Source: Thermanaerothrix sp.
Lineage (GTDB): Bacteria > Synergistota > Synergistia > Synergistales > Synergistaceae
Assembly (NCBI GenBank): GCA_026417795.1
Contig: JAOACP010000013.1
Span: 1 to 50,671, forward strand
Direction of reading: 5' to 3'
Length of the DNA: 50,671 nucleotides
The position numbers and the translations under genes were made by a program. Shown here one piece after another: positions 13,025 to 37,895 of the stretch (within the stretch, counting starts at the first letter, position 1; each line of letters opens with the position of its first letter). The notes under the pieces were generated by a model. The model ran no database searches. It was not told where the DNA came from and saw only the letters and a program-made list of their open reading frames with translations.

Positions 13025-13363
13025 TTGGAGGATAAGAAACGGGTCATTCAGGAATACGTCCCCGGCAAGCAGGTAACGCTGGCCCACATGATATGCAACC
13101 CAAGGCCGGAGCTGTGCTCCCTTGTGGGGGTCGAAAAGGTGGGGGCCATAGGGATAATGACCATAACCCCCGGCGAGGGAGCCATCATCGCCGCGGACAT
13201 AGCATCCAAGTCCGGGGACGTGAGGATGGACTTCATCGACCGCTTCACCGGCTGCGTGCTCTTCACCGGAGACGTGGCGGCGGTGGAGAGCTCCCTTGAA
13301 AACGCGGTGCGCACCCTGTGGTCGGTGCTGGGCTTTACGCCGGCCCCCATCACCAGGACCTAA
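13025..13363 (+). CDS. eutS: Ethanolamine microcompartment shell protein EutS
   Basis: 112 residues, TTG start after GGGGGGTGA. Strong family match: [17 protein letters not shown] at the N-terminus (typical EutS), then the BMC fold with [28 protein letters not shown] and [17 protein letters not shown] in turn. EutS is the permuted BMC hexamer that forms bent facets of the Eut shell. It is followed by eutP with TAATG overlap. These two genes are convergent with the main eut operon and sit downstream of the nifSU operon terminator. Confidence 0.96.
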
Positions 13364-13898: not shown

Positions 13899-14447
13899 TC
13901 ACATAAGGGCCGCCACCAGATCCCTGTGGGGGGAGGCTATCACCGACGAGCTCACCACGCCGCCCTCGTCGCCCAACCGCTTCTCACAGGCCCTGACCGA
14001 GGCCTCAACGCTTCCAAGGTCCCCGGTGAACACCACGAACCCCTTGCCCCCAAGGCCCCGGGCTATCCGAACCTCCAACAGGTTTATCGAAGCCGCCTTA
14101 GCCGCCACGTCAGCGGCGGTTATGGCCGCCACCGCGGATATGGTCTCCACCAGCCCCAGGGCCTCCACCCCCCCAAAATCGGCGGTGCCGGTCAAGGCCG
14201 GTATGACCGATGGGTGCACGTTGGGAAGCACGTGGGAGTCCACGGTGAAAATCCCTCCCACCAGAACCGCCTTGTTCACCGCGGTCCTCACCGCGTCCAC
14301 CTCGCCGGATATTATGCTCACGTACTTGCCTGGACATATGGGGGAGGAGAACAGAAGACGGACCTCCGAAGCCTTGAGCATGGCGTCCGCCGCCTCCACC
14401 CCCTTGGGCACCGTCTTGTACTCCATAAGACCTATGGCTAAGCTCAA
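13899..14447 (-). CDS. pduT: PduT-like tandem BMC shell protein with Fe-S cysteine
   Basis: About 182 residues with two BMC domains in tandem: AIGLMEYKTVPKGVEAADAM opens the first and ALGLVETISAVAAITAADVA the second. The segment FSSPICPGKY holds the cysteine that in PduT ligates a [4Fe-4S] cluster at the centre of the trimer pore. The TTG at 14447 (8 bases after AAGGGGG) is chosen because it aligns with the PduT N-terminus. It is the last gene of the operon, directly after pduS, its usual partner. Inferred role: conducting electrons across the shell. Confidence 0.93.
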   Translation of the reverse strand: MSLAIGLMEYKTVPKGVEAADAMLKASEVRLLFSSPICPGKYVSIISGEVDAVRTAVNKAVLVGGIFTVDSHVLPNVHPSVIPALTGTADFGGVEALGLVETISAVAAITAADVAAKAASINLLEVRIARGLGGKGFVVFTGDLGSVEASVRACEKRLGDEGGVVSSSVIASPHRDLVAALM

Positions 14448-14460
14448 AAACAGCACCCCC

Positions 14461-15789
14461 TTACGATACCTGTATCACCATGCGATCCCCCAGCACCTCC
14501 GACACCACGCCGGGCAAGGGGGCGTGAACCCCGGCGGATACCTCTCCATCGGGGCTGGCCACCAGCTGCCCCTGACGCACCGTATCGCCGGGGGAAACCA
14601 CCGGAACCGCCGGAGCCCCTATGTGCTGCTTAAACTTCAACACCAACCGCCCCCATGGGAACTCCACGGACTCCCCCAACTCCGTATGTACCGCCCCGTA
14701 CTTTCCAAGCCCCAGGCGTCCTAAAAGCTTGCCCGCCGGGAATCCCCGGTACTTACGGAAAGGATTGACATCCTTAGGAGCGCTCCTGTGAGGATTCCTT
14801 ATCCCCAGGCTGGACATCCTGAGCTTCAGCTCCCGGTTAAGCTTCCAGGGCTGAAGACCCATGACGCAGGCCACCTCGCACATGCCGCACTCGCAGCACA
14901 GGAAGGCCTCCGTGGACGCCGCATCCCTCTCACAGGTGTCGTTGTACGCCGCAAGACGCATCAGCTTGTCGGGCCTCAGCTTGTGCCCCAAAAGGTATCG
15001 GGGGCAAAGGTCCGTGCACAGCATGCAGTGACAGCACGCGGTCTTGGCTAGCCTCATCATCTCCGGCAGCTTCCTCATCTTGGAGACCACCAGGGGATGA
15101 TCCCTGGGAAGCACTATTATCCCCTTGGTAGTCTTAACCACCGGCTCCGAGGGATCCTCCACCACCTTGCCCATCATGGGCCCCCCGTCTATGGCCACCC
15201 AGTCCTTCACCAAAGCCCCTCCGCACACCTCCACCGCCTGGGCAAAGGAGATCCCCACCGGAACTCTTATGGTGGCGGGCTCCGCCACCTCGCCGCAAAC
15301 GGTCAGGTACTTGTGGGTGACGGGAAACCCTTCCAGAGCCCTTGACACGTTGTACATAGTCTCCACGTTCATAACCACTGCCCCTACCTCCAGAGGTATG
15401 CCCCCCTCGGGGACTATCTTCCCTATGGCCTCGTAAACTAAAACCTGCTCATCCCCCGCGGGGTACACGTTGGGCAGGACGTGAAGCCTAAGGCCGGGAT
15501 ACCTGCCCACGGCCGAACCAATCAAATCCAAAGCCCTCTTGTACTTGCCCTTGAACGCAAGAACTCCCTCCCTGGCCCCCAAGGCAGAGACCAGAAGGTA
15601 CATGGTTTTAAGGAGCTCCTCTCCCCGGGCCGCAGCCAAAAGCTGATCCACCTCAAGCAGGGGCTCGCACTCCGCCCCGTTCAGTATCAGGTGTTCAAAG
15701 GCCCCTTTGAGCTTTACGTGGGTGGGGAATCCAGCCCCCCCAGCTCCCACCACCCCCGCATCCCTTATCCTGACAAGAAGATCCTCCAT
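14461..15789 (-). CDS. pduS: PduS-like flavin/iron-sulfur electron-transfer protein (RnfC-like)
   Basis: About 442 residues. N-terminal NADH/FMN-binding RnfC/NuoF-like part (GVVGAGGAGFPTHVKL, ILNGAECEPLL, MNVETMYNVSRAL), an SLBB domain near AVEVCGGALV, two cluster motifs CCHCMLCTDLCP and CCECGMCEVAC, and a C-terminal sandwich-hybrid domain. In propanediol compartments PduS is a cobalamin reductase. ATG 15789 follows GGGAGGGG; a TTG 27 bases earlier is less likely. It lies between eutA and pduT. With no EutG nearby it may oxidise NADH from EutE and pass electrons to PduT (inference), and/or reduce cobalamin for EutT. Confidence 0.92.
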   Translation of the reverse strand: MEDLLVRIRDAGVVGAGGAGFPTHVKLKGAFEHLILNGAECEPLLEVDQLLAAARGEELLKTMYLLVSALGAREGVLAFKGKYKRALDLIGSAVGRYPGLRLHVLPNVYPAGDEQVLVYEAIGKIVPEGGIPLEVGAVVMNVETMYNVSRALEGFPVTHKYLTVCGEVAEPATIRVPVGISFAQAVEVCGGALVKDWVAIDGGPMMGKVVEDPSEPVVKTTKGIIVLPRDHPLVVSKMRKLPEMMRLAKTACCHCMLCTDLCPRYLLGHKLRPDKLMRLAAYNDTCERDAASTEAFLCCECGMCEVACVMGLQPWKLNRELKLRMSSLGIRNPHRSAPKDVNPFRKYRGFPAGKLLGRLGLGKYGAVHTELGESVEFPWGRLVLKFKQHIGAPAVPVVSPGDTVRQGQLVASPDGEVSAGVHAPLPGVVSEVLGDRMVIQVS

Positions 15790-15812
15790 AGGAACCCCTC
15801 CCAGCTCAATCC

Positions 15813-17243
15813 TCAAGAGCCGAACACCAGCGTCTTTATCACCACCGGAAGCACCCGGCCCTTCGCAAGGGGACGGCCTATGTCTATGTAATCCCCATTG
15901 CCCACCTTGACCCCGTCAAGGCTTATAACCTTCACTCCCTCGGGCAGCCTGCTGGAAAGGGCGTACCCCAAAGCCTTCCCCATGTCCCGTTCCAACACCA
16001 CCACAAGAACATCGGTTCCCATAAGGTAACCCCGAAGGCCCTCTATTATGCTCTCCGCCATCCGCTGAACCTGCTCAAACGTGGGGTTCTCAATCCCCCT
16101 AAAGGCAAAGGCAACGGTCTGATGGGCCCCTTGGGAATCGATAAACCAAAGGACCTTGTCCCTCAAAGCCTGGGATAGACACCCCTCCTCCTCCGCCCGG
16201 GTAAGCTTCAGTATGGGCATGTTCCTTAAGGGGAAAACCGCCTGATCGCTGAAACCTATGGTGCTGCCGCTGAGCTCCACCGAGTGGCTGCCCGCCCCTA
16301 TGACGGTGGCCCTTATGGTCTCCTTAGGTCTTACACCGCCGCCCAGCGAGAAAAGCCGGGTGCCCCTCACCGCCCTTCCAAGCAGCACCCCAAGGTCCCC
16401 GTAGGCGAAGGGCTCCAGGTGGTCGCCGCCGTATACGCAGTCCCCCACCCCGCCGGATATCAAGACTCCATCCAACTTGACGCCCGGATCCCTCAAGTCG
16501 TGGGAGGTAAGCATCTCCATGAGCAAAGAGGTCCTTGGAACCAGCCCAAACAGCTCGTCCAAAAGCCCCGCCATCCTGGCGCATATGGCGTTGGCCGTCT
16601 CAAGGTCCAGAAAATCCCCCTCTTCCAGCAAAACCCCCATGGACCTTAAAAGGGGCCTTATGGAGGAAGACACGTGCTCCACCCTGCCGCCGCTCGAAAC
16701 CCTTATCAACCGGCCTCCCACGTTAAGGCACGAGGTGTCCCACACCTCCCCACAGCTGAAAACCGCCGCGTTGGAGGTGCCGCCGCCCATGTCCACGTTG
16801 GCCACCACCGACCCCTGGGAGCGGGATAGGGCCTCCGCCCCGGACCCCTTGCCGGCCAAGATACCCTCCAGATCCGACCCGGCGGTGGCCACCACGAAAT
16901 CCCCCGCCAGCCCCTCCATGCTCTCCAAAACCGCCTGGGCGTTCTCCTTACGGGCGGTCTCGCCGGTTATTATCACCGCCCCGGCGTGCACATCTTCCCT
17001 CGACATGCCCGCAAGTCGATACTCCATCTCCACGATCCGTCGGACCGCCTCCGCGTCTATGGCAACCGGCGAGAGGAGGGGGGTAAAATATATGCCGCTC
17101 CTGTACGTCACCCTCTTCTCCACCACCGCAACCCGGGGCACGGCGCCAAACCCGCCGCCCTCATCTATTATCAGCTCGCTGAAGACCAGCTGGGTGGTCG
17201 TGGTGCCTATATCGATGCCTACGCTGGCAAGACGGTCCGACAA
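15813..17243 (-). CDS. eutA: Ethanolamine ammonia-lyase reactivating factor EutA
   Basis: About 476 residues. Hsp70/actin-like ATPase fold: SVGIDIGTTTTQLVF (phosphate 1), DMGGGTSNAAVF (phosphate 2) and LNVGGRLIRV, all typical of EutA. It exchanges damaged cobalamin out of EutBC for fresh AdoCbl at the cost of ATP. Three starts are possible (TTG 17252, GTG 17249, TTG 17243); TTG 17243 has GGAGG at 9 bases and the best match to family length. It lies 29 bases after eutT in the operon. Confidence 0.95.
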   Translation of the reverse strand: MSDRLASVGIDIGTTTTQLVFSELIIDEGGGFGAVPRVAVVEKRVTYRSGIYFTPLLSPVAIDAEAVRRIVEMEYRLAGMSREDVHAGAVIITGETARKENAQAVLESMEGLAGDFVVATAGSDLEGILAGKGSGAEALSRSQGSVVANVDMGGGTSNAAVFSCGEVWDTSCLNVGGRLIRVSSGGRVEHVSSSIRPLLRSMGVLLEEGDFLDLETANAICARMAGLLDELFGLVPRTSLLMEMLTSHDLRDPGVKLDGVLISGGVGDCVYGGDHLEPFAYGDLGVLLGRAVRGTRLFSLGGGVRPKETIRATVIGAGSHSVELSGSTIGFSDQAVFPLRNMPILKLTRAEEEGCLSQALRDKVLWFIDSQGAHQTVAFAFRGIENPTFEQVQRMAESIIEGLRGYLMGTDVLVVVLERDMGKALGYALSSRLPEGVKVISLDGVKVGNGDYIDIGRPLAKGRVLPVVIKTLVFGS

Positions 17244-17272
17244 GTCCACCAACCTCCGTGATTCCCGCGCCT

Positions 17273-18046
17273 CTAATACTCCTTGTCGTAACCGGCGGGA
17301 AGGTTCATGTACATTGCCACGTAAAAGGCGCTGCTCAACCGGTTAAGGGCCCTCACTATGTCCTGCCTCAAAAGTCCCTGGTCCTCCCTGTAAAAGGCCG
17401 CAAAGGCCGCCAACTCCGCCTCCCGGGTCCTAGCCCTAAGCTGGTTCAAACCGCAGCATATCCGCCCCATCGAGTAGTGGGGCCTTATGTGCCCCCTGCC
17501 AAAGGCCTTCCTTGGGTTGTGGGACATGCTCCGAAGGGCGTCCCAGTCATGCCCAAGCAGCGGCGTCTCCTCCACCGGCGAACCGGTCACCTCGGCCCTC
17601 AAGATGGACCTTATGACGGTGAGGAAATCCTCCAAGCCCTCCGCCAGACCCTGATTGCCCTCCTCAAAGGCCAAGGCCTGCAGGGCTATGACCTCCGCCT
17701 GAAGTAAGTCCAGCTTCCCCCTGAAGGCTATCACCGGATGCCCCTTGTTAACCAACCGGTTGCCGTGGAGGTGGGTCATGTGCTCCGGCTTATGGGCCAA
17801 AACACCCCCATCGGGGCCCACGAAACGGGCAGATGCAGCTTCCGAAGACCCCGCCGCGGGGGATGGCGCCGACGCTACCCCGCCCCCCAGCTCCCCGGCG
17901 GAATCCCCGATCACCAGCTCTATCTTACGGTCCGACAGGTACTGCCTCGCCGATGGGGTCACTATGGTCCCCCGATCCACCACGTACCGGCGGACGTCCT
18001 TCCCCCCTATCTGGGCCCGAAGATCCTGCTCGGTCACAAGCTTCAA
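17273..18046 (-). CDS. eutT: Corrinoid adenosyltransferase EutT
   Basis: 257 residues, TTG start 7 bases after GGGGG. It makes AdoCbl, the EutBC cofactor, from cob(I)alamin and ATP. The N-terminus contains GTIVTPSARQYLSDRKIELV, a segment shared with other BMC accessory proteins, then KPEHMTHLHGNRLVNKGHP and the helical adenosyltransferase core (GKLDLLQAEVIALQ, CCGLNQLRARTRE). Cysteines of the metal motif described for Salmonella EutT near residues 67-83 are not found there; a CC pair occurs at 197-198 instead. Lies between eutQ and eutA. Confidence 0.92.
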   Translation of the reverse strand: MKLVTEQDLRAQIGGKDVRRYVVDRGTIVTPSARQYLSDRKIELVIGDSAGELGGGVASAPSPAAGSSEAASARFVGPDGGVLAHKPEHMTHLHGNRLVNKGHPVIAFRGKLDLLQAEVIALQALAFEEGNQGLAEGLEDFLTVIRSILRAEVTGSPVEETPLLGHDWDALRSMSHNPRKAFGRGHIRPHYSMGRICCGLNQLRARTREAELAAFAAFYREDQGLLRQDIVRALNRLSSAFYVAMYMNLPAGYDKEY

Positions 18047-18065
18047 GGAGATCCCCCCAATCGCC

Positions 18066-18521
18066 TCACTGGGAGGCCCAGTCCGCAGGGTAGGTCACGT
18101 AAAGGAACCTCACGAAATCAGGGGTGCTGAAGTGTATGGTGCTGTTGGCGGGGATGTATATCACATCCCCCTTGTTGCCCACCACCCTACGGCCATCCAC
18201 CACTATCTCCAAGGTACCCTCTATGACGTAGTCTATCTCATCGTATCTCAAGGTCCACTTGAAGGCGCTCCTCTCCATCTCCATAACGCCGCAACCGAGC
18301 CTCGGGCTCTCCTCAAGGGTGAGAACGTCCTTGAGGAACACCCGGTCCGAATCCTTTCCGGTGTCAAACCTCTCGGGCTTCACCGTCCCCAGCCTTACGG
18401 AGAGCACGCCGCTTGGGTCCACCCGCTTCTCAAAGGATGCCTTCTCCTCCCCTGATCCACCCTCCGACAAAAGGTCCTTAATGACTTCCCGTATCATGGA
18501 TTTGAGCTCTTCCCTGTCCAA
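18066..18521 (-). CDS. eutQ: Cupin-family ethanolamine utilization protein EutQ
   Basis: About 151 residues from TTG 18521, chosen for its GAGGGGG site 8 bases upstream; the longer frame back to 18665 would run into eutH. The N-terminus LDREELKSMIREVIKDLL is an amphipathic helix like microcompartment-targeting peptides. The cupin barrel follows: MEMERSAFKWTLRYDEIDYV, EGTLEIVVDGR and GDVIYIPANSTIHFS. Salmonella EutQ has acetate kinase activity, so it may form ATP from the acetyl phosphate made by PduL. Lies between eutH and eutT. Confidence 0.93.
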   Translation of the reverse strand: MDREELKSMIREVIKDLLSEGGSGEEKASFEKRVDPSGVLSVRLGTVKPERFDTGKDSDRVFLKDVLTLEESPRLGCGVMEMERSAFKWTLRYDEIDYVIEGTLEIVVDGRRVVGNKGDVIYIPANSTIHFSTPDFVRFLYVTYPADWASQ

Positions 18522-18648
18522 ACGGCACACCCCCTCATCGGCTCCGTCGTAAGAAGCCAACGGCCTGCGCAAAGAACTCCTATAACGCCATCCCCTCCGG
18601 TCCCCACCTATAAGACCCGGGAGAGGATCGGAAAACATCCATACCCTC

Positions 18649-19761
18649 TTACTTCGCCTCTCCATTGGCAGGGGTGAACTTGCAGGCCAGGATAACGGCA
18701 GTTATGCCGCCCACCAGCTTGCCCACTATCATGGCCAATATGAGCCCCCGCTCAACCCCGGCGGTGAACCCCAGGTGATCGCCGAACACAAAGGCGGCGC
18801 TGACCGAGAAGGCCACGTTTATTATCTTGCCCCTCTCGTCCATGTCCTTCATCAGGGTGAACATGGGGATGTTGTTCGCCAAGGTGGCTACCATCCCGGC
18901 GGCGGAGACGTCGTTCATGCCAAGCCTCTTGCCAAAGGCCATGAGGGGCTCTTTAAACACCTTGGTTATGACCGCCACCATCGGGAAGGCCCCCGCAAGC
19001 ACTATGGCTATGGCCCCGATCACCCCGATGGCCTCCGAAAGGGGCGCCAAAGCAAATGGGGACCCCTCGGGGAAAAACCGGAAGGGGGAGAGGGCCTCTA
19101 TTATCCCCATCGCAAGCCCTATGGTTATAACCGACACAACCCCCTTGCCAAACACGATAAACCCCTTGATCATAGCCTCCGGTATCATCTTCAAACCCGC
19201 CGCTATGAGCACCGAGAAGAGGACCACCGGGATCAGGTTCATCAACATGACGTTGAAGGGGAACTCCTTGTTCAGCATCAAAAGCCCGCCCGCAAAACAA
19301 CCAAGGGGTATGGTGACCATGCCTATCAGTATGCCCTTGGCCAGGGCGGCGTGATCCTTCTTCTCTATGATCCCAAGGGCCACCGGTATGGAGAAGACGA
19401 TGGTGGGCCCCATCATGGCTCCAAGAATGATCCCAGCGAAGCGTCCCACCTGGGGGTTCTGGGCCATCTTCATGGCCAAAGGATACCCCCCCATGTCGCA
19501 GGCCAAAAGGGTGGTGGCAAACATGGCGGGATCCGCGCCCATCATCCTGTAAAGGGGAACTATTATGGGCTTGAGCAACTCCGCCAACATGGGGGCTATG
19601 GTGATAACACCTCCCATGGCCAACATCAGAGATCCCATGGCCATGAACCCTTCCTCGAACTTCTCACCCAACCCCATCTTGTTGCCCAAGAACGCCTTGT
19701 CCACGGCTCCCAAGACCATGAAACCCGTCATCACGTAGAGGATGATATCGTTGATACCCAT
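18649..19761 (-). CDS. eutH: Ethanolamine permease EutH
   Basis: 370 residues, almost entirely hydrophobic with about ten membrane segments; ATG after GGAGGTGAACGCTC. Family hallmarks include MGGVITIAPMLAELLKPI, LLACDMGGYPLAMKMAQ and NIPMFTLMKDMDERGKI. EutH carries ethanolamine into the cytoplasm, chiefly when external substrate is scarce or protonated. It is the only transporter in the operon. About 127 bases to the eutQ start hold no recognised element. Confidence 0.95.
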   Translation of the reverse strand: MGINDIILYVMTGFMVLGAVDKAFLGNKMGLGEKFEEGFMAMGSLMLAMGGVITIAPMLAELLKPIIVPLYRMMGADPAMFATTLLACDMGGYPLAMKMAQNPQVGRFAGIILGAMMGPTIVFSIPVALGIIEKKDHAALAKGILIGMVTIPLGCFAGGLLMLNKEFPFNVMLMNLIPVVLFSVLIAAGLKMIPEAMIKGFIVFGKGVVSVITIGLAMGIIEALSPFRFFPEGSPFALAPLSEAIGVIGAIAIVLAGAFPMVAVITKVFKEPLMAFGKRLGMNDVSAAGMVATLANNIPMFTLMKDMDERGKIINVAFSVSAAFVFGDHLGFTAGVERGLILAMIVGKLVGGITAVILACKFTPANGEAK

Positions 19762-19804
19762 GAGCGTTCACCTCCATATCCCCACAGTTAACCCCAAGGT
19801 GGCA

Positions 19805-20077
19805 TCACCCCAAGAGCGACTCATCCACCTCCACCGAGTCTATGATCCCCACTATCACCGCATCCACCGGCACGTGCTCCCGGTCGAAAACCATCCTCGC
19901 GGAACTGCCCTGGGACACCAACACGTGATCCCCTATGCCGGCCCCGGCGGCGTCCACCGCCACAAAACCTCCCCCAGGACCGGACTTCACCGGCTGTACC
20001 ACGAAGAACTTAAGGCCGTTCAGGCTCTCGTCCTTCTTGGTGGCCCAAACGTTGCCCACCCCCTTGGCTATTATCAA
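19805..20077 (-). CDS. eutN: BMC vertex pentamer protein EutN
   Basis: About 90 residues from TTG 20077 (8 bases after GAGGGGG), which aligns with EutN N-termini; GTG 20086 is an alternative. EutN/CcmL family: IIAKGVGNVWATKKDESLNG, VAVDAAGAGIGDHVLVSQGS and VDAVIVGIIDSVEV in order. These pentamers cap the vertices of the polyhedral shell. It overlaps the end of the PduM-like gene by 4 bases. Confidence 0.95.
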   Translation of the reverse strand: MIIAKGVGNVWATKKDESLNGLKFFVVQPVKSGPGGGFVAVDAAGAGIGDHVLVSQGSSARMVFDREHVPVDAVIVGIIDSVEVDESLLG

Positions 20078-20733
20078 CCGCCGCACCCCCTCACCACATC
20101 AATCCCCTTGACCCTCAGGAGATCCATGCACAGGGGGGTTATTATGGCCTTGGCATCCACCAGTATCTCCCTGCAACCCTCCGGGCACCGATCCTTTATC
20201 TCCCTCTCCGATATAAGCCGCATCCCCCGAAGATCCAGGGCCCCCTTCTCATCCCTCTCTGCCTCAACGATAGCATCGCCCGGGGCCGAGGCCACATGTA
20301 AGGGAACCCCCGCAATCTCCGACGGGGACGAAACCAGCCGGACCCCGAAGGAACAAAGCCGCTCAAGGCAGCTCCGGTAATGCTTACCAAGGGGTTCTTG
20401 GGGTGGTAGAAGATCCATCCACCCAAGGGCTTCCTTCAGAAGAAACACCTCCGCCCCCCGGGAAAGGCCCCCCACGAGGGCCTTTGACACGGCATCGCAC
20501 CACATGCCCAAGGAACACGCCACCAGCTGGCATTGATCCAGCCTCGGGACCAACAGGCGGTCAAAGCCCTCCGCCCCCAGGGCCTCCCCCATAAACACCA
20601 GATCGCCCCCCCAGGAGGACGGTAGGCTGCCGGGCTCCCCCAGCACAAGGAACCCGCCTCCTCCGGAGCATCCCCCCTCAAGCCGCCTCATTACCTCCTT
20701 AACCACCGCGTCTATCAACCTAGCTTGATCCAA
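20074..20733 (-). CDS. BMC-associated protein, PduM / eut_hyp (TIGR02536)-like
   Basis: About 219 residues from TTG 20733 behind GGGGGTGATC. The N-terminal amphipathic helix LDQARLIDAVVKEVMRRLEG resembles encapsulation peptides. A middle domain of about 120 residues with alternating strands and helices has no motif I can name. The C-terminus VDAKAIITPLCMDLLRVKG matches the closing segment of PduM and of the eut_hyp family and is also similar to the EutT N-terminus here. Such proteins are needed for compartment assembly in Pdu systems, with unknown biochemistry. Between eutJ and eutN. Confidence 0.72.
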   Translation of the reverse strand: MDQARLIDAVVKEVMRRLEGGCSGGGGFLVLGEPGSLPSSWGGDLVFMGEALGAEGFDRLLVPRLDQCQLVACSLGMWCDAVSKALVGGLSRGAEVFLLKEALGWMDLLPPQEPLGKHYRSCLERLCSFGVRLVSSPSEIAGVPLHVASAPGDAIVEAERDEKGALDLRGMRLISEREIKDRCPEGCREILVDAKAIITPLCMDLLRVKGIDVVRGCGG

Positions 20734-20751
20734 AAGGATCACCCCCAAAGC

Positions 20752-21612
20752 TCAACGCCCTTCAATCGGGCATCCCATGGCTATGCCAAGGGGAGTTACG
20801 AGAAAAGGACGGCGCGGCACGAAGGCCCGCAGCCCAACCTCCGAGCTTATCACCCGCTCCATCCCCGGGAACGAGCACGTGCCCCCCACCAGAAACAGGT
20901 CCTCGGCCCCAGCTCCTTGGATAAAGCGCTTTATTATGGTGCCCATCTTCTGGAACACCGGCTTGACCACGCTGATAAGCTCCGGCTGAACCCTTGGATC
21001 CCGCTTCAACGCCTCCGCCTCCTCAAAGGCTATCCCCCGGTTGCCGGCGATGACCAGGGACACGTGGGTACCACCGGTGGGCTCATCGGTCACGGACACC
21101 AGCTCGCCTCCCTTGAAGAGGGCTATGCCGGTGGTGCCGCCGCCTATGTCCACCACCGCCCCGTCCTCCACCCCAAGGACCAGGTTGGCGGCGGTGGGCT
21201 CGTCAAGGATCTCCATCACCTCGAATCCAGCCCCCTCCGCCACGTATCGGTGGGCATCGCAGTCCCTTGGGGAAGTGCCGGGGGGAACCGCCACCGCGGC
21301 GTCGCAAAGCTCCGTTCCGATGCGCTCCTCCAGCAGGGCCTTAAGCCCCCGGACTATCCGGGAAGCCCCGGCGAAGTCAACCACCAAGCCGTCCCGGACC
21401 ACCGAGGCCTCCTCCATATCCCACGACACCGGCCGCCCCTGTGAATCAACCACCACCAGCACTATGGAGGCGGTCCCAAGGTCCACCCCAACCCGGAGGG
21501 GAGGGACGAAGCTACTAAGGGGCTCCTCCCTAGTCCTAAAAGCCTCTTCCAAGAGGACGTCCACCCGGCGGATAAGCGGCGGAACCTCCAAGCAACGGCC
21601 AGGATCGGTCAT
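20752..21612 (-). CDS. eutJ: Hsp70-like ethanolamine utilization protein EutJ
   Basis: 286 residues. Actin/Hsp70-like ATPase motifs RVGVDLGTASIVLVVVD and VVDIGGGTTGIALFKGG, with LDEPTAANL and FLVGGTCSFPGM, match EutJ. It is thought to be a chaperone for compartment or enzyme assembly; its exact task is not established. Its ATG overlaps the pduL stop by 4 bases (ATGA). A MreB/PilM-type protein is unlikely given the eut setting. Confidence 0.92.
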   Translation of the reverse strand: MTDPGRCLEVPPLIRRVDVLLEEAFRTREEPLSSFVPPLRVGVDLGTASIVLVVVDSQGRPVSWDMEEASVVRDGLVVDFAGASRIVRGLKALLEERIGTELCDAAVAVPPGTSPRDCDAHRYVAEGAGFEVMEILDEPTAANLVLGVEDGAVVDIGGGTTGIALFKGGELVSVTDEPTGGTHVSLVIAGNRGIAFEEAEALKRDPRVQPELISVVKPVFQKMGTIIKRFIQGAGAEDLFLVGGTCSFPGMERVISSEVGLRAFVPRRPFLVTPLGIAMGCPIEGR

Positions 21613-22268
21613 GGCACTATGTTCCCCCTTACACCCTTTCTATACCCACAGGCGTTGGCCTCGTCGTAGTCTATGTGCATGGCAAGGCTGTACTTGGGGG
21701 AGACCCGGACCAGCACTTCCTCAAAGATCACGGGACGCCCCCCATTAACCCTCACCTTTACACGATCTCCATCCCTTACCCCCAAAAGAATGGCGTCATC
21801 GGGGGTCATGTGGACGTGCCTGTGGGCCACTATGACCCCCTCGTCCAACCGGACCTCCCCGTTGGGGCCCCTTATGACCAACGAGGCGCTGCCGCGGAGG
21901 TCCCCCGAGTCCCTGACCGGAGGGGATATGCCAAGGTTCAAGGCGTCGGTCATGGACACCTCCACCTGGGTCCTATCCCTCTCCGGCCCAAGGACCGCCA
22001 CGTTCCGCATGTCCCCCTTTGGCCCCACAAGGGTCACCCTCTGGGAGCACAAGAACTGGCCCGGCTGGGAAAGGGGACGCTCGGGGGAAAGGGAAGCCCC
22101 CTTGCCGAAGAGGGCCTCCACGTGGGGGGCGCTGAGGTGGACGTGCCTGCCCGAGGCCTCCACCTCAAAGGATATCCGCCCCCTCAAGGCCCACAACACC
22201 CGCTCCGCCAGGGCATCCAGGTCAAGCCCATCCGGCAGCGGACCCGCCCCCTCCCTCGGGCTCACCAT
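21609..22268 (-). CDS. pduL: Phosphotransacylase PduL (EutD replacement)
   Basis: 219 residues. PduL-family phosphotransacylase converts acetyl-CoA to acetyl phosphate, recycling CoA inside the shell. Duplicated zinc-binding motifs are visible as SGRHVHLS and AHRHVHMTPDDA, plus SMTDALNLGISPPVRDSGDL and HIDYDEANACGY. The N-terminus (DLDALAERVLWALRG) is an amphipathic helix resembling a targeting peptide. It takes the place of the unrelated enterobacterial EutD. Starts 4 bases after eutM and overlaps eutJ. Confidence 0.95.
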   Translation of the reverse strand: MVSPREGAGPLPDGLDLDALAERVLWALRGRISFEVEASGRHVHLSAPHVEALFGKGASLSPERPLSQPGQFLCSQRVTLVGPKGDMRNVAVLGPERDRTQVEVSMTDALNLGISPPVRDSGDLRGSASLVIRGPNGEVRLDEGVIVAHRHVHMTPDDAILLGVRDGDRVKVRVNGGRPVIFEEVLVRVSPKYSLAMHIDYDEANACGYRKGVRGNIVP

Positions 22269-22271
22269 GGC

Positions 22272-22577
22272 CTACGCCCCCTGGGGCTTCGACTGGTCCA
22301 AGCTCGGAAGTATGAACTCCACCTCCGGGTGGGGCCGCGGGATCACGTGCACCGAGATCAGCTCCCCAACCTTGCTGGCCGCCGCAGCCCCCGCGTCAGT
22401 GGCGGCCTTCACCGCACCCACGTCGCCTCTTACCATCACCGTGACCAGCCCGCCACCCACCATGACCTTGCCTATCAACGTGACGTTGGCGGCCTTCACC
22501 ATGGCATCCGCCGCTTCCACCGCTCCAACCAACCCCTTGGTCTCTATCATGCCCAGCGCCTGCATGTTGTTGCTCAT
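22272..22577 (-). CDS. eutM: Major BMC hexamer shell protein EutM
   Basis: About 101 residues from ATG 22577, 8 bases after GGGGG. One BMC domain: [41 protein letters not shown] in sequence, and the [12 protein letters not shown] ending, close to EutM/PduA. A short tail (about 15 residues) follows. Expected to form most flat facets of the shell, with a small-molecule pore at the hexamer centre. Lies between eutE and pduL. Confidence 0.95.
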
Positions 22578-22649
22578 CTTCACTACCCCCTTTTAAGATT
22601 TATTAAACACAGCCGAACCGCAACCACTTCAAACCCTCAGCCGGGCATC

Positions 22650-24122
22650 TCAATGCCCCAGGCGCTTGAGAAGCCGATCCGCTATCCTGTCCACCAACTC
22701 CTCCAACTGGCAATCCCGGTCTACCGCCAATCCCGCCTCGCGGGAAGGAGCCCCCTTGAGGTCCCCTATCTCCTTGGTGCCCCAGGCCACCCGCCTTACG
22801 TTTATGAGGTGCATTGGCCCCACGTTGTCGGAGGTGGCGTTGTGCCCCGCGGCGCCGCACCCCAAGGTCATGGAGGGGAAAAGCCCCGTGGTGGCCCCCA
22901 CGGCCCCCAGGGAGGAACCGGCGTTCACTATCACCCTGGAAACCGGCTTCTTGAGCCCAAACTGGCGTATGACCTCCTGGTCGTTGGAGTGTATGGCCAA
23001 GGTGTGCCCCGCCCCCTCAAAGTCCAGAAGCCTTATGCACAGCTCGCAGCACCTCTCCCAGCCCTCCTCTGAGTAAAAGGCCAGCACGGGACACAGCTTC
23101 TCCTGGGAGAAGGGGTACTCCTTCCCCACCCCTTGCCCCTCCGCCAGGAGCAGCCGGGTGCCCTCCGGGATGCTTATCCCCGCCTCCCTGGCGATGAACT
23201 CCGGGCTCCTGCCCACGGTCCTGGGGTTCATGAGCCCCGAGGGCTGGAATATGGTCCTCGCCACCTTGGCCGCGTCCTCCGGGGGTAGGAAGTATCCACC
23301 CTGGCGGACGAACTCCCGCCTTACCTCCTGCTCCACCACGCGGTCCACCACCACGGACTGCTCGGAGGCGCAGATGGTGCTGTAGTCGAAGGTCTTGCTC
23401 TCCATTATCCGGGACACCGCCCTTTGGATGTCCGCGGTGCGGTCTATGAAGGCCGGGGTGTTCCCGGGCCCCACCCCTATGGCGGGGGTGCCGGAGCTGT
23501 AAGCCGCCCTCACCATGGCGGCCCCTCCGGTGGCCAGGATCAGGGACACGTTCTCAGGCCTCATCAGCTCCTGGGTACCCTGGGGAGTGACCATGGACAT
23601 GCAGCCGAACACCCCCTCGGGTCCTCCCGCCTCCTCCACCGCCTTGGAGAGCACCTTCACGGTCTCCATGATGCAGTTCCTGGCGCTGGGATGGGGGGAG
23701 AAGATGATGCTGTTAGCCCCCTTCAAAGCTATCATGGCCTTGAATATCACCGTGGAGGTGGGGTTCGTGGATGGGATGAGCCCCGCCACAACCCCCACCG
23801 GCACCGCCACCTCAAACAGCCTGCCCGCCGGGTCCTCCCTTATGATCCCCACGGTGCGCATGCCCTTTATGGCCTCATATACGTCCCTGGCGGCGAAGAG
23901 GTTCTTAAGACGCTTGTCCTCGGGCTTGCCGTAACCGGTCTCCTCGTGGGCCATCCGCCCAAGCCGTTCCGCGTTCTCAACCCCAGCCCTGGAGACCGCC
24001 GCCACCAGCCGGTCGATCTCATCCTGCCCCATGGAGGCTAGGACCCGCTGGGCCCCCTTAGCCCTGGCAACCAAGTCCCTTACCTCCTGGATCGACATGA
24101 GATCCCTGTCCCTAACCTGCAC
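22650..24122 (-). CDS. eutE: CoA-acylating acetaldehyde dehydrogenase EutE
   Basis: About 490 residues. It oxidises acetaldehyde from EutBC to acetyl-CoA with NAD+. Catalytic Cys251 lies in STICASEQSVVVD; VPVGVVAGLIPSTNPTSTV and ALKGANSIIFSPHPSA are typical. The GTG at 24122 has GGAGGTG 6 bases upstream, whereas the ATG at 24128 is too close to it. The extreme C-terminus CQLEELVDRIADRLLKRLGH is an amphipathic helix that may direct the enzyme to the lumen. It overlaps the eutK-like gene by 11 bases. Confidence 0.95.
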   Translation of the reverse strand: MQVRDRDLMSIQEVRDLVARAKGAQRVLASMGQDEIDRLVAAVSRAGVENAERLGRMAHEETGYGKPEDKRLKNLFAARDVYEAIKGMRTVGIIREDPAGRLFEVAVPVGVVAGLIPSTNPTSTVIFKAMIALKGANSIIFSPHPSARNCIMETVKVLSKAVEEAGGPEGVFGCMSMVTPQGTQELMRPENVSLILATGGAAMVRAAYSSGTPAIGVGPGNTPAFIDRTADIQRAVSRIMESKTFDYSTICASEQSVVVDRVVEQEVRREFVRQGGYFLPPEDAAKVARTIFQPSGLMNPRTVGRSPEFIAREAGISIPEGTRLLLAEGQGVGKEYPFSQEKLCPVLAFYSEEGWERCCELCIRLLDFEGAGHTLAIHSNDQEVIRQFGLKKPVSRVIVNAGSSLGAVGATTGLFPSMTLGCGAAGHNATSDNVGPMHLINVRRVAWGTKEIGDLKGAPSREAGLAVDRDCQLEELVDRIADRLLKRLGH

Positions 24123-24711
24123 CGCCATCACCTCCTCCCTCTCCCATAAACGACCTTATCTCCCGCAAAAGCTCCTCCTTAGAGGCGAACTTTATCCTCT
24201 TCCTGCTCATCCCCACGGGGAGGGACCTCGCAAGCCTCCTAAGCTCCATCACCGTCATTGCCTCCAGCTCACGGTCCGAAGGGGAAGCCTCCTTTTGGGG
24301 GCTAATGGGAACTGAGGCTTCGCCTCCACCATTAGGATCCACCAGGAACCCATGGGCTGAATCGGTTTCCTCCGCCGGCTCACTCCCGCCGGAGGGTGGA
24401 ACTTCCTGGCCGCCAGGGGCCGGAACCAGCATCTGCCAAACCTCCCGGTGAGGGCGGGGTATGACGTGCACCCACCTCATGCCTACCCGAAGCTTCTCCA
24501 CCGAGGCGGCGGCCGCGTCCACCGCGGCCCTGACGGAGGCCACGTCGCCGGCCAGCAAAACGGTTACTATCCCCCCCTTGACCTTGCGGACACCCAACAG
24601 GGTCACCGACGCGGCCTTAAGGGCGGAATCCGCCGCCTCCACCGCCCCCAGCATCCCAAACACCTCCACCATGCCGAGGGCCTTGCCCGTGATGCCGCCG
24701 TCCCATCCCAT
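24112..24711 (-). CDS. BMC shell protein with C-terminal extension (EutK/PduK-like), Rho_N/SAP-like tail
   Basis: About 199 residues; start ATG 24711 or GTG 24723. Residues ~8-95 form one BMC domain ([32 protein letters not shown]). A Pro/Gly/Ser/Glu-rich linker of about 50 residues leads to a basic helical module, LEAMTVMELRRLARSLPVG then KRIKFASKEELLREI, which resembles Rho_N/SAP-type nucleic-acid-binding motifs. E. coli EutK also has a BMC domain plus a nucleic-acid-binding-like C-terminal domain, but a different fold. Role of the tail unknown. Confidence 0.82.
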   Translation of the reverse strand: MGWDGGITGKALGMVEVFGMLGAVEAADSALKAASVTLLGVRKVKGGIVTVLLAGDVASVRAAVDAAAASVEKLRVGMRWVHVIPRPHREVWQMLVPAPGGQEVPPSGGSEPAEETDSAHGFLVDPNGGGEASVPISPQKEASPSDRELEAMTVMELRRLARSLPVGMSRKRIKFASKEELLREIRSFMGEGGGDGGAG

Positions 24712-24739
24712 TGGGCAGGCCACTCCCAGAGCCCGGACC

Positions 24740-25393
24740 CTAGAAGAGCAGCGGGTTCTCGGCCACGAATATCACCGCCTGGGCGAAGGCGTCGCAGGCG
24801 GCCTTACAGGCGGACTGGGAACCGGTGAGCAAACCCCCGCCAAAGTTGGTCTCCGAAGGAGGGCCGTAGAAAGCCGCCAGCCTCACGTCCGCGGCCTTCA
24901 ACGCCGCATCCAGTGCGTACATGGCCTCCAACGGAGGGGCTATCAGGTAAGCCAGGGCCTCCCCCTCCTTTATCCCCGCCACCTTGGAGAGGTAGCTGCC
25001 GGTCCTGGATATGCAGTGGGCGTAGTAAGGTATGGTGTCGTCGTCGTTGGCGGACACGAACCACGCCTCGTTCTCTATAAAATCCGCTATGGCGTTGAGC
25101 CCGCTGCGGACCTCCGCGGGGTTGGGGCCCGCTATTATCCCGATGATCTCCCCCGCCAGCTTCGTGTTGGCATTCGCGGCCCCGCCGTAGAAGGACTTGG
25201 CGTACACCACCTCCACGTCCGCCTTCTTGGTGGCCTCGTCCAGGGCGGTGTAGGTCACGTCGTCGCTGTCAGCGGTGACCATGCCAAGGCTCCTCTGGTC
25301 GGGCCTAAGGCCCAGGGCCGATGCCATGTCGGGGTTGACGTTGGGAATTATCTTTACGCTCAAAAGCCTCGCCTTCAGGGGATCTCCCTTCAT
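24740..25393 (-). CDS. eutL: Ethanolamine microcompartment trimeric shell protein EutL
   Basis: 217 residues, the usual EutL length; ATG after GGAGGG. Two BMC domains, with EutL hallmarks VKIIPNVNPDMASALGL at the N-terminus, SLGMVTADSDDVTYTALDEA, EVVYAKSFYGGAANA and TGSQSACKAACDAF. EutL trimers have a gated pore able to open widely and can bind ethanolamine between subunits. It sits directly after eutC. Confidence 0.96.
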   Translation of the reverse strand: MKGDPLKARLLSVKIIPNVNPDMASALGLRPDQRSLGMVTADSDDVTYTALDEATKKADVEVVYAKSFYGGAANANTKLAGEIIGIIAGPNPAEVRSGLNAIADFIENEAWFVSANDDDTIPYYAHCISRTGSYLSKVAGIKEGEALAYLIAPPLEAMYALDAALKAADVRLAAFYGPPSETNFGGGLLTGSQSACKAACDAFAQAVIFVAENPLLF

Positions 25394-25419
25394 CTTCCTT
25401 CCCTCCTTAAGGGCTCGTT

Positions 25420-26319
25420 TTAAAGCTTAAGATCTATCCCGCTTACCTTCTTGTCCAGCATCAGCCGGATGATCTCCCCTATGTAGCCCCCCGCCTCAAC
25501 CGCCGGGGTGCCTCCCCGGTGGATGTTGGACACCACCGTACGCCTGGCCTCGGGCATGCCAACGGTGCCCCGGTAGGTTATGTAGGCGGACATGCTCTCC
25601 GCGGTGACCAATCCGGGCCTCTCGCCGATCAACACGCAGACCACCTCTGCGCCGGTAACCTCGGATACGACGTCCATGGCGGGAACCCTGCCGTACTTCA
25701 CGAAGAAGGGCTTGGGCAGCTTGATCCCCGTGGCCTCCAGCGCCTGGGATATGGCCTTGAAGGTGTCCATGCCGTTGGCCTCCACCGCGGTGGTGCTGAG
25801 CCCGTCGGACAGGTAGACCAACACCTTGGGAGGCTGGGGCACCATGGACTTGATCACCCCCTTGGCCTCCTCGGAGAACCTCCTCCCCAGGTCAGGCCTG
25901 GTCAGAAACTGGTCCTTGTCGGAGCAGAGGGTCTGGACCAACTTAAGGTCGTTGGCTTTAAGGAACTCGTCGGATATGTCGCTGAACACCGCGTCCTGGG
26001 CGGCGGCATGGTCCGCCCTAAAGCGCAGCAGCGTGTCGGTCTTGTAGCGGGGCCCCGCCCTCCAAACCCCCAGCCTGGCGGGGGTCTTCTCCTTCATCGC
26101 CATGAGGGCCTTAGGGTCCTTGGGCTCCGGCACAAGACAATGCTTCCTTATGTCCAGCTGGGTTATATCGGGCAGGGCCTCCGCCTCCAGATCCTGAAGG
26201 CTGCCCCCCGGCGCCTTGGTGGCCTGGGGCTCCTTCACACCCTCCTGCCCCGCCTCCCGGGACCCCATCTCCATCAGTATCTCCTTCACCAGCTGCTTCA
26301 GCTCAAGCTCCGTCACCAT
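25420..26319 (-). CDS. eutC: Ethanolamine ammonia-lyase small subunit
   Basis: About 299 residues from ATG 26319, 9 bases after GGGAGGG and just past the eutB stop; earlier in-frame starts lie inside eutB. The N-terminal helix VTELELKQLVKEILMEMG is the EutC targeting peptide known to bring the lyase into the lumen. The lyase domain follows: ARLGVWRAGPRYKTDTLLRFRAD, YLSDGLSTTAVEANG, VCVLIGERPGL and SNIHRGGTPAVEAGGYIG, covering the cobalamin-binding region. With EutB it cleaves ethanolamine to acetaldehyde and ammonia using AdoCbl. Confidence 0.96.
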   Translation of the reverse strand: MVTELELKQLVKEILMEMGSREAGQEGVKEPQATKAPGGSLQDLEAEALPDITQLDIRKHCLVPEPKDPKALMAMKEKTPARLGVWRAGPRYKTDTLLRFRADHAAAQDAVFSDISDEFLKANDLKLVQTLCSDKDQFLTRPDLGRRFSEEAKGVIKSMVPQPPKVLVYLSDGLSTTAVEANGMDTFKAISQALEATGIKLPKPFFVKYGRVPAMDVVSEVTGAEVVCVLIGERPGLVTAESMSAYITYRGTVGMPEARRTVVSNIHRGGTPAVEAGGYIGEIIRLMLDKKVSGIDLKL

Positions 26320-26336
26320 CTCTACCATCCCTCCCA

Positions 26337-27698
26337 TCAGCAGAAGATGGAGGCATCCCCGGCCCGGTCGGTCAGGGCGCCGTTCTCCATGATCCCCCAT
26401 TTCTCAAGCCAACGCTCGAACTCAGGGATGGGGCGCACCTTAAGCAGCTGCCTTAAAGTGGGGGTATCGTGGTAGCTGGTGCACTGGTAGTTGAGCATCA
26501 CGTCGTCCCCGTGGGGTATCCCCATGAAGTAGTTGCATCCCGCAGCGGTCAAAAGCACCGCCAGGTTCTCCACGTCGTTCTGGTCCGCCTTCATATGGTT
26601 GGTGTAGCAGGCGTCGCATCCCATGGGTATTCCAGTGAGCTTGCCCATGAAATGGTCCTCAAGGCCCGCCCTTATGACCTGCTTGCTGTCGTACAGGTAC
26701 TCCGGACCTATGAACCCAACCACGGTGTTGACCAGGAAGGGCTTGAACCGCTTGGCGAAACCGTAACAGCGGGCCTCCATGGTGACCTGGTCCGAATCGA
26801 AGTGGGCGTCCGAAGAGAGCTCCGACCCCTGGCCGGTCTCAAAGTACATGAAATTAGGCCCCACGGACGTGCCCTGACAGGCCGCCAGCTCCATGGCCTC
26901 CGCCAGCATCTGGGCGCTTATGCCGAAGGCCTCGTTGCCCTTCTGGGATCCCGCTATGCTCTGGAAGAATAGGTCCGTGGGTGCCCCCTGGCGCACCGCC
27001 TCCATCTGGGTGCTTACGTGGGCGAGCACGCAGATCTGGGTGGGTATCTGGTACCTCTCCTTTATCTCCTGGAAGCTGTGAAGTATCTTCTTCACGTTCT
27101 CCACCGTGTCGTCCACCGGGTTGAGGCCTATAACCGCATCCCCTACCCCGTAGGACAGACCCTCGAATATGGAGGCCCTGATCCCTTCCACGTCATCGGT
27201 GGGGTGGTTGGGCTGAAGCCGGGACGCAAGGGTCCCGGGCAACCCTATGGTGGTGTTGCAGTGGGCTGGAACCCGGATCTTGCTGGCCCCATATATGAGA
27301 TCCATGTTGCTCATGAGCTTCGCCACTCCGGCTATGACCTCGCTGGTAAGCCCACGGCTTACGCGCCTTATGTCTTCCCCGGTGGTGCGGTCCGACAGTA
27401 TCCACTCCCGAAGCTCGCCTATGGTCCAGTTGCGTATCTCCGCGTAGACCCTCTCGTTCACGTCGTCCTGGATTATCCTGGTTACCTCGTCCTCCTCGTA
27501 GGGCACCACCGGGTTGTTCCGCAAGTCCCCCACCGTCAGGTTCGCCAAAACGTGCTTCGCCGCCACCCGCTCCTCCATCGACTCGGCGATTATACCCGCC
27601 AGGCGGTCCCCGGACTTCTCCTCGTTCGCCTTGGCAAGTACCTCCTTAACGCTCCCGAACTGGTACACCCGACCAAAAAGCTTGGTCTTAAGCTTCAC
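26337..27698 (-). CDS. eutB: Ethanolamine ammonia-lyase large subunit
   Basis: 453 residues, the normal EutB length; GTG start with GGAGGTG upstream. The TIM barrel carries family sequence throughout: KLMSNMDLIYGASKIRV, CNTTIGLPGTLASRLQPNHP, YGVGDAVIGLNPVDDTVEN and GIPMGCDACYTNHMKADQND. It binds substrate and the upper face of AdoCbl for the radical 1,2-elimination. First gene of the operon, read from a leader with a cobalamin riboswitch. Confidence 0.97.
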   Translation of the reverse strand: MKLKTKLFGRVYQFGSVKEVLAKANEEKSGDRLAGIIAESMEERVAAKHVLANLTVGDLRNNPVVPYEEDEVTRIIQDDVNERVYAEIRNWTIGELREWILSDRTTGEDIRRVSRGLTSEVIAGVAKLMSNMDLIYGASKIRVPAHCNTTIGLPGTLASRLQPNHPTDDVEGIRASIFEGLSYGVGDAVIGLNPVDDTVENVKKILHSFQEIKERYQIPTQICVLAHVSTQMEAVRQGAPTDLFFQSIAGSQKGNEAFGISAQMLAEAMELAACQGTSVGPNFMYFETGQGSELSSDAHFDSDQVTMEARCYGFAKRFKPFLVNTVVGFIGPEYLYDSKQVIRAGLEDHFMGKLTGIPMGCDACYTNHMKADQNDVENLAVLLTAAGCNYFMGIPHGDDVMLNYQCTSYHDTPTLRQLLKVRPIPEFERWLEKWGIMENGALTDRAGDASIFC

Positions 27699-27756: not shown

Positions 27757-27818
27757 AAAAACCCCGGCCCCCACGCGCCCATAGGCATGCAAGCCCAGCA
27801 ACGCATGGGGCCCCGGGG
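27757..27818 (-). terminator. Intrinsic terminator in the eut leader (riboswitch expression platform)
   Basis: On the minus strand a CCCCGGGGCCCC arm pairs with GGGGGCCGGGG across a 33-base loop region and is followed at once by TTTTTGGTTT. It lies between the cobalamin aptamer and eutB, about 60 bases before the start codon, so it can attenuate the whole operon. Confidence 0.8.
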
Positions 27819-27842
27819 TCACGCGGAACCTCAAGTCCTCCT

Positions 27843-27976
27843 CCACGAAAGGTCTCCTGGCTTACCTTCATCCTTTGCCGCACCTTCCCGGGCATACCCC
27901 AGTGGCATCACGCGGCATCGTCAGGATCACAGTGGCGGCCCCGCGCCGAACTCCCATCGGCTTCCCTGGATCGTGG
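27843..27976 (-). promoter_or_regulatory. Cobalamin (B12) riboswitch aptamer
   Basis: Read on the minus strand: closing stem CCACGA/TCGTGG; AGGGAA; a GCCGA/TCGGC hairpin with loop TGGGAGT; GCGGGGCCGCCACTGT (core near 27929-27936); TGCCACTGG then CGGGAAGG; and the B12 box AAGCCAGGAGACCT at 27850-27863. These are the conserved blocks of the cobalamin family in the correct order. It precedes an intrinsic terminator and then eutB, whose product needs AdoCbl. Whether ligand promotes or prevents termination cannot be settled by eye. Confidence 0.93.
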
Positions 27977-28049
27977 AAGGATCTCTTAAACACTACGCAA
28001 GCGATAAACAGATGCACCGTTCAACAAGAACAACACCACTGCCGTATCA

Positions 28050-28078
28050 AGATTATCCACGCAATCTAAAATAGTCAA
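28050..28078 (-). promoter_or_regulatory. Promoter of the eut operon
   Basis: On the minus strand TTGACT, a 17-base spacer and TAATCT. Predicted transcription start is near 28043, about 67 bases before the aptamer, giving a leader of roughly 345 bases. It is divergent from ptsI. Confidence 0.75.
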
Positions 28079-36527: not shown

Positions 36528-37895
36528 CTAAAGATAGAACAGGCAGCGAACCTCGCAGCCTCCGCCGGGGGACGATATCACCTGCAGCTCCGCCCCCATG
36601 AGGGCGGCCCTCTCGCTCATGTTCGCAAGCCCCCTGTGGCCTGAAACCCTAAGGGACTTAAATTCCTTAGGCGGAACAAAACCACTACCGTCGTCCCTTA
36701 TATAAAAGCAGAAAATCCCATTTTCCTCAAACGTACCAATCTTGAAACTTCTGGCGCCGCCGTGGCGGCAGCCGTTGTTCACCGCCTCCTGGAAGATCCT
36801 CATGAGAGGAAGGGCCTTGTCGTCGCCGATCCTCTCCTCAAGGCCTGGGACGTCCACCTGGATGTCAACCCCCCATTGGGCCTTAAGCCTCAACGCCAGC
36901 TCCTGCAGCGCCTGCTCGATCCCCAGCTCCACCCAAGGAGGCGCCAGGTGGTCGCAAAGCCCCCTAAGCTCCCTCACGCACTCCCGGGCCGCCTCCTCCG
37001 CCATACTTAGCTCCTCACCGGCCTTCGCCGGGTCTTCGATGATCCGCATGGCCAGCCTTATGCGCTGCATGAGGGCCGTCACCGCCTGCAGGGGCCCGTC
37101 GTGGATCTCCCTCGAGACCCGCTCCTTCTCCTCCTCCTGCACCCGTATGAGGTCCTTTACGTAGCTCTTGTCCAGGGCGGAGGCCCTCACCGCCTCCTCC
37201 GCCAGGCCCCGTATGGCCTCCTTGAGCTCCTCTATCTCCACCACCCCGCCGGAGGACTCGCCGGATGGGACCTCCTCCCCCAGCTTCAGGCACGACACCT
37301 CCTGGCTAAGGCGCCGCAACGGCACCACCACCCAGCGGCCCAGGAGGAACATTCCCCCAAGGCCAAGGAGCCCAAGGAAAACCATGAGCACCGGCCAAAG
37401 CTGGGAGAACCTCACCATGGGGCCCATCAACTGTCCCCAGGGAACCGCGGCTATCACGAATACCTCCTGGTTCACCGGGGTCACCGCCACGGTGTACCTC
37501 TCCCCGGACCTGTCCTTGGCCTCCAGCGCCTGCCCCCCCGGCAAACCCAAGGTCCAAAGCCCCACCAGACCCTGGGATCCCGGCGAACCCGCCAACAGCT
37601 GCCCCTGATAGTCCACCACCGCCATCATGCCCGGCACCGTGAGGTCCCCTATAAGACGCCTCATCCTCATGAACCCCATGGGGCCCATGTGCCCCATGAA
37701 CGGATCCGCCAGCGCAAAACGGGCCCTCTCTGCCACCCCCGAAGAGAGGCTCATAACGTACGAGCGGGACACCGACTCCAGGGCGTCCCGGGCCTTCAGG
37801 AACCCCACAAAGGCGGCCCCCACCACCGCCACGGACATCAAGGACATGAGCCCGAAAAGCCCCGGCAGCAGGTACCTCCGGAAGGACGCCCCCAT
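36528..37895 (-). CDS. NarL/DesK-type sensor histidine kinase
   Basis: About 455 residues; ATG 37895 overlaps the response regulator stop by one base. Two membrane helices (about 12-32 and 168-190) flank a ~130-residue extracytoplasmic sensor. A HAMP-like linker (VVPLRRLSQEV) leads to the HisKA_3 dimerisation motif ERVSREIHDGPLQAV, with phospho-acceptor H265. The ATPase part shows FQEAVNNGCRHGGA and DDGSGF, GHRGLANMSERA. It should phosphorylate the adjacent regulator. The stimulus is unknown. Confidence 0.94.
   Translation of the reverse strand: MGASFRRYLLPGLFGLMSLMSVAVVGAAFVGFLKARDALESVSRSYVMSLSSGVAERARFALADPFMGHMGPMGFMRMRRLIGDLTVPGMMAVVDYQGQLLAGSPGSQGLVGLWTLGLPGGQALEAKDRSGERYTVAVTPVNQEVFVIAAVPWGQLMGPMVRFSQLWPVLMVFLGLLGLGGMFLLGRWVVVPLRRLSQEVSCLKLGEEVPSGESSGGVVEIEELKEAIRGLAEEAVRASALDKSYVKDLIRVQEEEKERVSREIHDGPLQAVTALMQRIRLAMRIIEDPAKAGEELSMAEEAARECVRELRGLCDHLAPPWVELGIEQALQELALRLKAQWGVDIQVDVPGLEERIGDDKALPLMRIFQEAVNNGCRHGGARSFKIGTFEENGIFCFYIRDDGSGFVPPKEFKSLRVSGHRGLANMSERAALMGAELQVISSPGGGCEVRCLFYL

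Follow-up and report, generated by a model that had tools for sequence, protein, structure and literature searches.

A cobalamin riboswitch in cis before the ethanolamine utilization operon of Synergistota: a probable AdoCbl-induced ON switch

Cobalamin riboswitches are among the commonest riboswitches in bacteria. One of them stands directly before eutB, the gene of the AdoCbl-dependent ethanolamine ammonia-lyase large subunit, in a genome of the Synergistota, and raises the question of why a B12 riboswitch should control genes that need B12 to work. In a comparative riboswitch survey, the cobalamin regulon falls into the categories of synthesis, transport, and B12-independent isozymes, and the word "ethanolamine" is absent from its main text. 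All corrinoid riboswitches tested so far but one repress their genes (PMC10653944), and an AdoCbl-dependent enzyme repressed by its own cofactor would make little sense. An earlier note on this DNA, made from the letters alone, therefore proposed a rare ON switch that is induced by its ligand. Based on the architecture of the leader and its relatives, we consider a cis-acting, AdoCbl-induced transcriptional ON switch on eut to be the best reading, with a probability of about 0.65.

The window, by which we mean the whole analysed stretch of 50,671 nucleotides, makes up contig 13 of G000, a Synergistota genome of 1.92 Mb, and the features of the locus are collected in Table 1. A cmscan search returned a single Rfam match across the 50.7 kb, to the cobalamin riboswitch family RF00174, with 86.1 bits (E 6.3e-20) against a cut-off of 31.5 bits and covering model positions 1-189 of 189. 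The putative promoter, about 60-90 nt upstream of the aptamer, would consist of a TTGACT box at 28078-28073 and either GATAAT at 28057-28052 (15-bp spacing) or TAATCT at 28055-28050 (17-bp spacing); TTGAC(A/T) boxes also lie upstream of the aptamers in relatives. Promoter, aptamer, terminator, and eutB are all on the minus strand, an orientation absent from the earlier note, the aptamer being co-oriented with eutB, about 130 nt upstream of it, and followed by its own terminator. Thus, the set of elements that the earlier note had read from the letters is confirmed for aptamer, terminator, and eutB by the covariance match, the hairpin with its U-tract, and the EutB profile, and is plausible for the promoter; the covariance scan that it had named as a check places the element in the cobalamin family. 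By anatomy, the element is almost certainly a cobalamin riboswitch that controls eut in cis.

Table 1. Features of the eutB leader and operon (positions in the window)
Feature	Positions	Strand	Basis or remark
Putative sigma-70-type promoter	28050..28078	-	Sequence reading only
Cobalamin riboswitch aptamer (RF00174), full length	27830..27990	-	cmscan
Aptamer loop L5, GGCCG	27936..27940	-	Rfam alignment; expected partner of kissing loop L13
B12 box, AGCCAGGAGACC	27851..27862	-	Exact match
Switching segment, GGUUCCGCG	27822..27830	-	Partition-function folding
Antiterminator candidate P13c, GGUUCCG(CGUGACCC)CGGGGCC	27809..27830	-	3' arm is the terminator 5' arm
Antiterminator candidate P13a, CGCGUG(ACCCCGGGGCCC)CAUGCG	27802..27825	-	-6.5 kcal/mol; overlaps terminator 5' arm
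Intrinsic terminator hairpin, CCCCGGGGCCCCAUGCG...CGCGUGGGGGCCGGGG	27762..27818	-	57 nt, -43.3 kcal/mol
Terminator U-tract, UUUUU	27757..27761	-	Directly after hairpin
eutB, AdoCbl-dependent ethanolamine ammonia-lyase large subunit	26337..27698	-	NCBIfam NF011649, 702.8 bits
Remainder of eut operon	13899..26400	-	NCBIfam and Pfam matches

The gene behind the switch is the first of a 15-gene operon, in which eutB is followed by eutC, eutL, a eutM-like shell gene, eutE, eutM, eutD, eutJ, a TIGR02536 gene, eutH, eutQ, eutT, eutA, an RnfC-like gene, and, last, a PduT-like gene; eutBC together with shell proteins, EutE, EutD, EutA, and EutT make it a eut microcompartment operon. Neither EutVW nor EutR was found among the genes scanned in the window. 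Two neighbours may be mentioned here: a small P-loop GTPase that by eye resembles EutP (13318-13839, plus strand), lying outside the eut operon and running convergently towards its end, and a NarL/LuxR-type two-component pair not far from the operon (36528-38539, minus strand), which differs in type from EutVW. Elsewhere in the genome, cobalamin riboswitches stand mostly before cbi genes and genes for B12 receptors and uptake, targets that would be expected of ordinary repressing switches, and a B12 supply from which AdoCbl could be drawn is therefore predicted to be at hand. The alternative idea of the earlier note, an unusual coupling of B12 synthesis or salvage to EutT, finds no support. 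An unusual target in the same genome is a pair of aconitase and isocitrate dehydrogenase genes (contig C37, L202, 1545-3506 and 42-1295) behind the cobalamin riboswitch L001, which is of the free-P13 type and recurs with closely similar sequence (L140, L174) in all three genomes of the genus.

Of the 188 phylum genomes, 41 encode EutB, and among the loci of the best 30 EutB matches a cobalamin riboswitch lies no more than about 400 nt upstream of eutB in nine: those of G000, G174, and G175, which form the window's genus, and of G036, G040, G041, G043, G044, and G110 from two other families. The arrangement of aptamer, terminator, and eutB is thus seen in nine genomes of three families, every aptamer having an intact core (70-103 bits), and its recurrence in eight genomes besides the window's is far beyond chance. 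In a maximum-likelihood tree of EutB, the nine bearers and G042 form one supported clade (100/94). Since this clade crosses families, the operon and its riboswitch probably spread together by horizontal transfer after a single origin, as judged from the sequences. G042 has a truncated aptamer remnant adjoining eutB: at L016, a 5' part of the aptamer, GGGAAGCCGGU...CCGGCACGGGG, is fused to the region just before eutB, amounting to a natural deletion of the remaining switch and the terminator.

Among 79 further eutB loci from named genomes (L038-L116), a cobalamin riboswitch was found at the gene only in a Brachyspira MAG, so that no wider family of eut cobalamin switches emerged from this set. 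In this MAG (L074), an RF00174 aptamer at 2636-2774 immediately precedes eutB and is accompanied by an A+T-rich platform and the hairpin AAAACU(CGGGAGC)AGUUUU; by sequence, this is possibly an independent cis switch on eut. Elsewhere, cobalamin riboswitches precede two ThiC-like genes, possibly BzaA/BzaB (L195, G125), and an NrdD-like gene (L196, G164), all assigned by eye, and both kinds of gene are ordinary targets of repression.

The only described mechanism by which a cobalamin riboswitch is linked to eut is that of EutX/Rli55 (PMC5821096); in E. faecalis, the riboswitch was initially believed to act in cis on a eut terminator, until its action through EutX was demonstrated (PMC5821096). 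A mechanism like that of EutX/Rli55 could be imagined here: once terminated, the leader would act in trans on an antiterminator protein of the ANTAR type. However, a profile search found no ANTAR protein (PF03861) in G000, G174, G175, or the six other bearers, G174 and G175 being complete genomes, and the sponge mechanism of EutX/Rli55 therefore does not apply; the co-orientation of the aptamer, its closeness to eutB, and its own terminator also speak against it. A regulatory RNA of this type is thus nearly excluded, and the contrast with the EutX/Rli55 sRNA that the earlier note had drawn is borne out. By comparison, 12 eutB genomes without the riboswitch encode an ANTAR protein (one of them a weak match), often within a few kb of eutB, and G126 has an EutP-EutV-EutW-EutA block upstream, while several eutB genomes have neither riboswitch nor EutVW. 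The riboswitch hence occupies the place that the EutVW system holds in relatives.

What direction such a switch takes can be read, within limits, from the position of P13. In a repressing corrinoid riboswitch, P13 is held by a kissing loop between L5 and L13, is separate from the terminator, and aids its formation, whereas in the sole activating switch known as of 2023, P13 and terminator are mutually exclusive, since one strand serves both as P13 3' arm and as terminator 5' arm (PMC10653944). Scored by a uniform script, 36 of the 46 control cobalamin riboswitches of the phylum that have a terminator show a free P13 ahead of it; among the eut switches scored by the same script, none of seven has a free P13 and all seven have one that overlaps the terminator. 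The remaining two escaped the script, which called no aptamer in G110 and no terminator in G174 and lost some controls likewise; examined by hand, G174 and G110 have hairpins of -15.8 and -12.6 kcal/mol with a CGG loop that overlap the terminator 5' arm. P13 candidates and terminator are thus mutually exclusive in all nine. The nominal hypergeometric probability of finding no free P13, with all nine counted, is about 1e-5, which is only a guide because the sequences are related.

The six relatives from the other two families show the predicted ON architecture most clearly. In all six, a conserved hairpin GCCUU-(GCGGGGACUU)-GAGGC follows P1, with variants in G036, G110, and G041: after P1, the segments of G040, G043, G044, G036, and G110 read GCCUU, a CGGGGAC-like loop element, and GAGGC, and G041 has a close variant of these. 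The GAGGC side, in some together with the loop, is the base of the terminator in all six. The exact motif GCCAGGAGACC-N20-45-GGAYTTGAGG, searched with spacing limits that exclude the window's own genus, occurs only at eutB among the 188 phylum genomes. Complementarity between L5 and the putative L13 (CCG with CGG) is seen in g36, G110, and G174, G036 having one additional A, and in the window only for the loop of P13a; in the genus, the kissing loop is less clear. However, several g36 terminators carry CGG within their own hairpin or loop region, where L13 could instead lie. This would suit a conventional repressing switch, in which AdoCbl favours the terminator and lowers eut expression, for instance to conserve its supply or because plentiful AdoCbl signals conditions where ethanolamine goes unused. 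The prevalence of repression among tested corrinoid riboswitches favours this scheme, while the lack of a terminator-free P13 in every eut switch, unlike most switches of the phylum, argues against it.

In the window itself, the gap between P1 and terminator is 17-18 nt and contains no CGG, so that a canonical L13 is possible only inside the terminator. L5 here reads GGCCG (the consensus is UCCCG; PMC10653944). An earlier placement of L5 in the hairpin CACUG...GGGAAGG was rejected, since the Rfam alignment puts L5 in the loop before CCACUGU, and the L13 partners that matched the former were dropped. Between the two antiterminator candidates, P13c is favoured by energy and has a loop without CGG, giving a poor kissing-loop match, and P13a has a loop with CGG complementary to L5 and is rarely populated in folding; in these models, the exact antiterminator of the window, P13c or P13a, is ambiguous.

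Folding was calculated by partition function on growing transcripts, with the aptamer either imposed through enforced pairs or left unconstrained. When the terminator 5' arm has emerged, at transcript ends 62-80 nt beyond the beginning of the B12 box, RNA folded without constraint pairs GGUUCCGCG, a segment that likewise supplies the antiterminator candidates with their 5' arm, with its complement CGCGGGGCC in the aptamer core (27945-27937) with a probability of 0.66-0.98. At the same stage, P13c reaches a probability of 0.87-0.92 with the aptamer imposed versus 0.01-0.15 without, and a crude calculation puts the energy gap that falls to ligand, kissing loop, and tertiary contacts at about 7-10 kcal/mol. 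For G174, P13 was predicted with and without the aptamer. In the full-length transcript of the window, the terminator wins at equilibrium whether or not the aptamer is imposed, so any control must be kinetic and decided during transcription. Folding with and without the aptamer, which the earlier note had suggested, hence gives a divided answer: the nascent RNA shifts to the antiterminator, and the full-length fold is unchanged.

This independence of the full-length structures from the aptamer would also fit a relic or uncoupled aptamer, the terminator being then a fixed attenuator or under the control of some protein, and G042 illustrates that the element can decay. Nevertheless, a complete aptamer is retained with high scores in all nine genomes of three families, and the sequence of the platform segment is conserved between G000 and G175, in which the 20 nt starting at GGUUCCGCG are identical; we thus regard decay or uncoupling as improbable. 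The folding bears on repression as well. The unliganded anti-aptamer helix of the window incorporates GACCCC from the base of the terminator as well, and GGUUCC could weakly kiss L5 (GGCC), so an OFF scheme can be drawn. Against it, the antiterminator candidates use no aptamer bases and gain rather than lose probability once the aptamer is imposed. The pairing GGUUCC:GGGGCC, considered as an antiterminator of the OFF type, was rejected; it forms the core of P13c and can coexist with a folded aptamer. Taken together, we hold repression to be unlikely, though a good deal less so than decay or a trans-acting RNA.

The preferred reading, an ON switch, would work as follows. Without corrinoid, the leader would misfold, with GGUUCCGCG paired into the aptamer core, and the strong terminator would form and keep the eut operon off. 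Binding of AdoCbl, or of another corrinoid, would fold the aptamer and free this segment, and the folded aptamer would hold a P13-type hairpin through the L5-L13 kissing loop. As the 3' arm of P13 lies within the terminator 5' arm, P13 would act as antiterminator, and RNA polymerase would read on into eutB. This reading is supported by the architecture, its conservation, an exact published precedent, and the metabolic sense of inducing an operon that consumes AdoCbl. The ON switch proposed by the earlier note is thus the best supported idea, given that P13 and terminator exclude each other in nine switches as they do in cobT, with its sign still a prediction.

In a wider sense, we think it somewhat better than even that this is a native family of AdoCbl-activated cis riboswitches that arrived once with the eut operon, spread between families of Synergistota, and gates ethanolamine catabolism by B12 where relatives use EutVW, which would make it the first corrinoid switch of the activating kind to govern an AdoCbl-dependent pathway. 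Our literature search, mostly of papers outside subscription, found neither a second activating corrinoid riboswitch nor any previous description of eut under a cis-acting cobalamin switch of ON sign. If true, an ON switch in cis on an operon that consumes AdoCbl would resolve the apparent paradox that a B12 riboswitch precedes the gene of an enzyme in need of B12, would add a third route, besides EutR and EutV/EutX, to cofactor-dependent use of ethanolamine, and would offer nine natural sequences with which to ask what sets the sign of this riboswitch.

The closest known system is the cobT riboswitch of Alkalihalobacillus halodurans (Procknow et al. 2023, PMC10653944), in which P13 and the intrinsic terminator are likewise mutually exclusive, with the 3' arm of P13 serving as terminator 5' arm, and corrinoid binding is expected to stabilise P13 as antiterminator. 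However, cobT is a gene of lower-ligand synthesis and its switch responds to cobinamide, whereas the Synergistota switch precedes a catabolic operon that consumes AdoCbl, its presumed ligand. The repressing metE switch of Priestia megaterium (PMC10653944) and ordinary RF00174 members share the aptamer family, the L5-L13 kissing loop, and the intrinsic terminator, but their P13 is separate and promotes the terminator, while the eut switches have no free P13. Among eut systems, EutX/Rli55 of Enterococcus and Listeria (PMC5821096) also ties cofactor supply to eut through an AdoCbl riboswitch, with activation as the net effect of AdoCbl, yet it acts in trans by sequestering EutV, in contrast to a cis element before eutB in genomes that encode no ANTAR protein. 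Finally, EutR of Salmonella and E. coli (PMC5821096) makes eut expression dependent on AdoCbl as well, but it is a protein activator that senses ethanolamine together with AdoCbl, whereas the sensor in Synergistota would be RNA.
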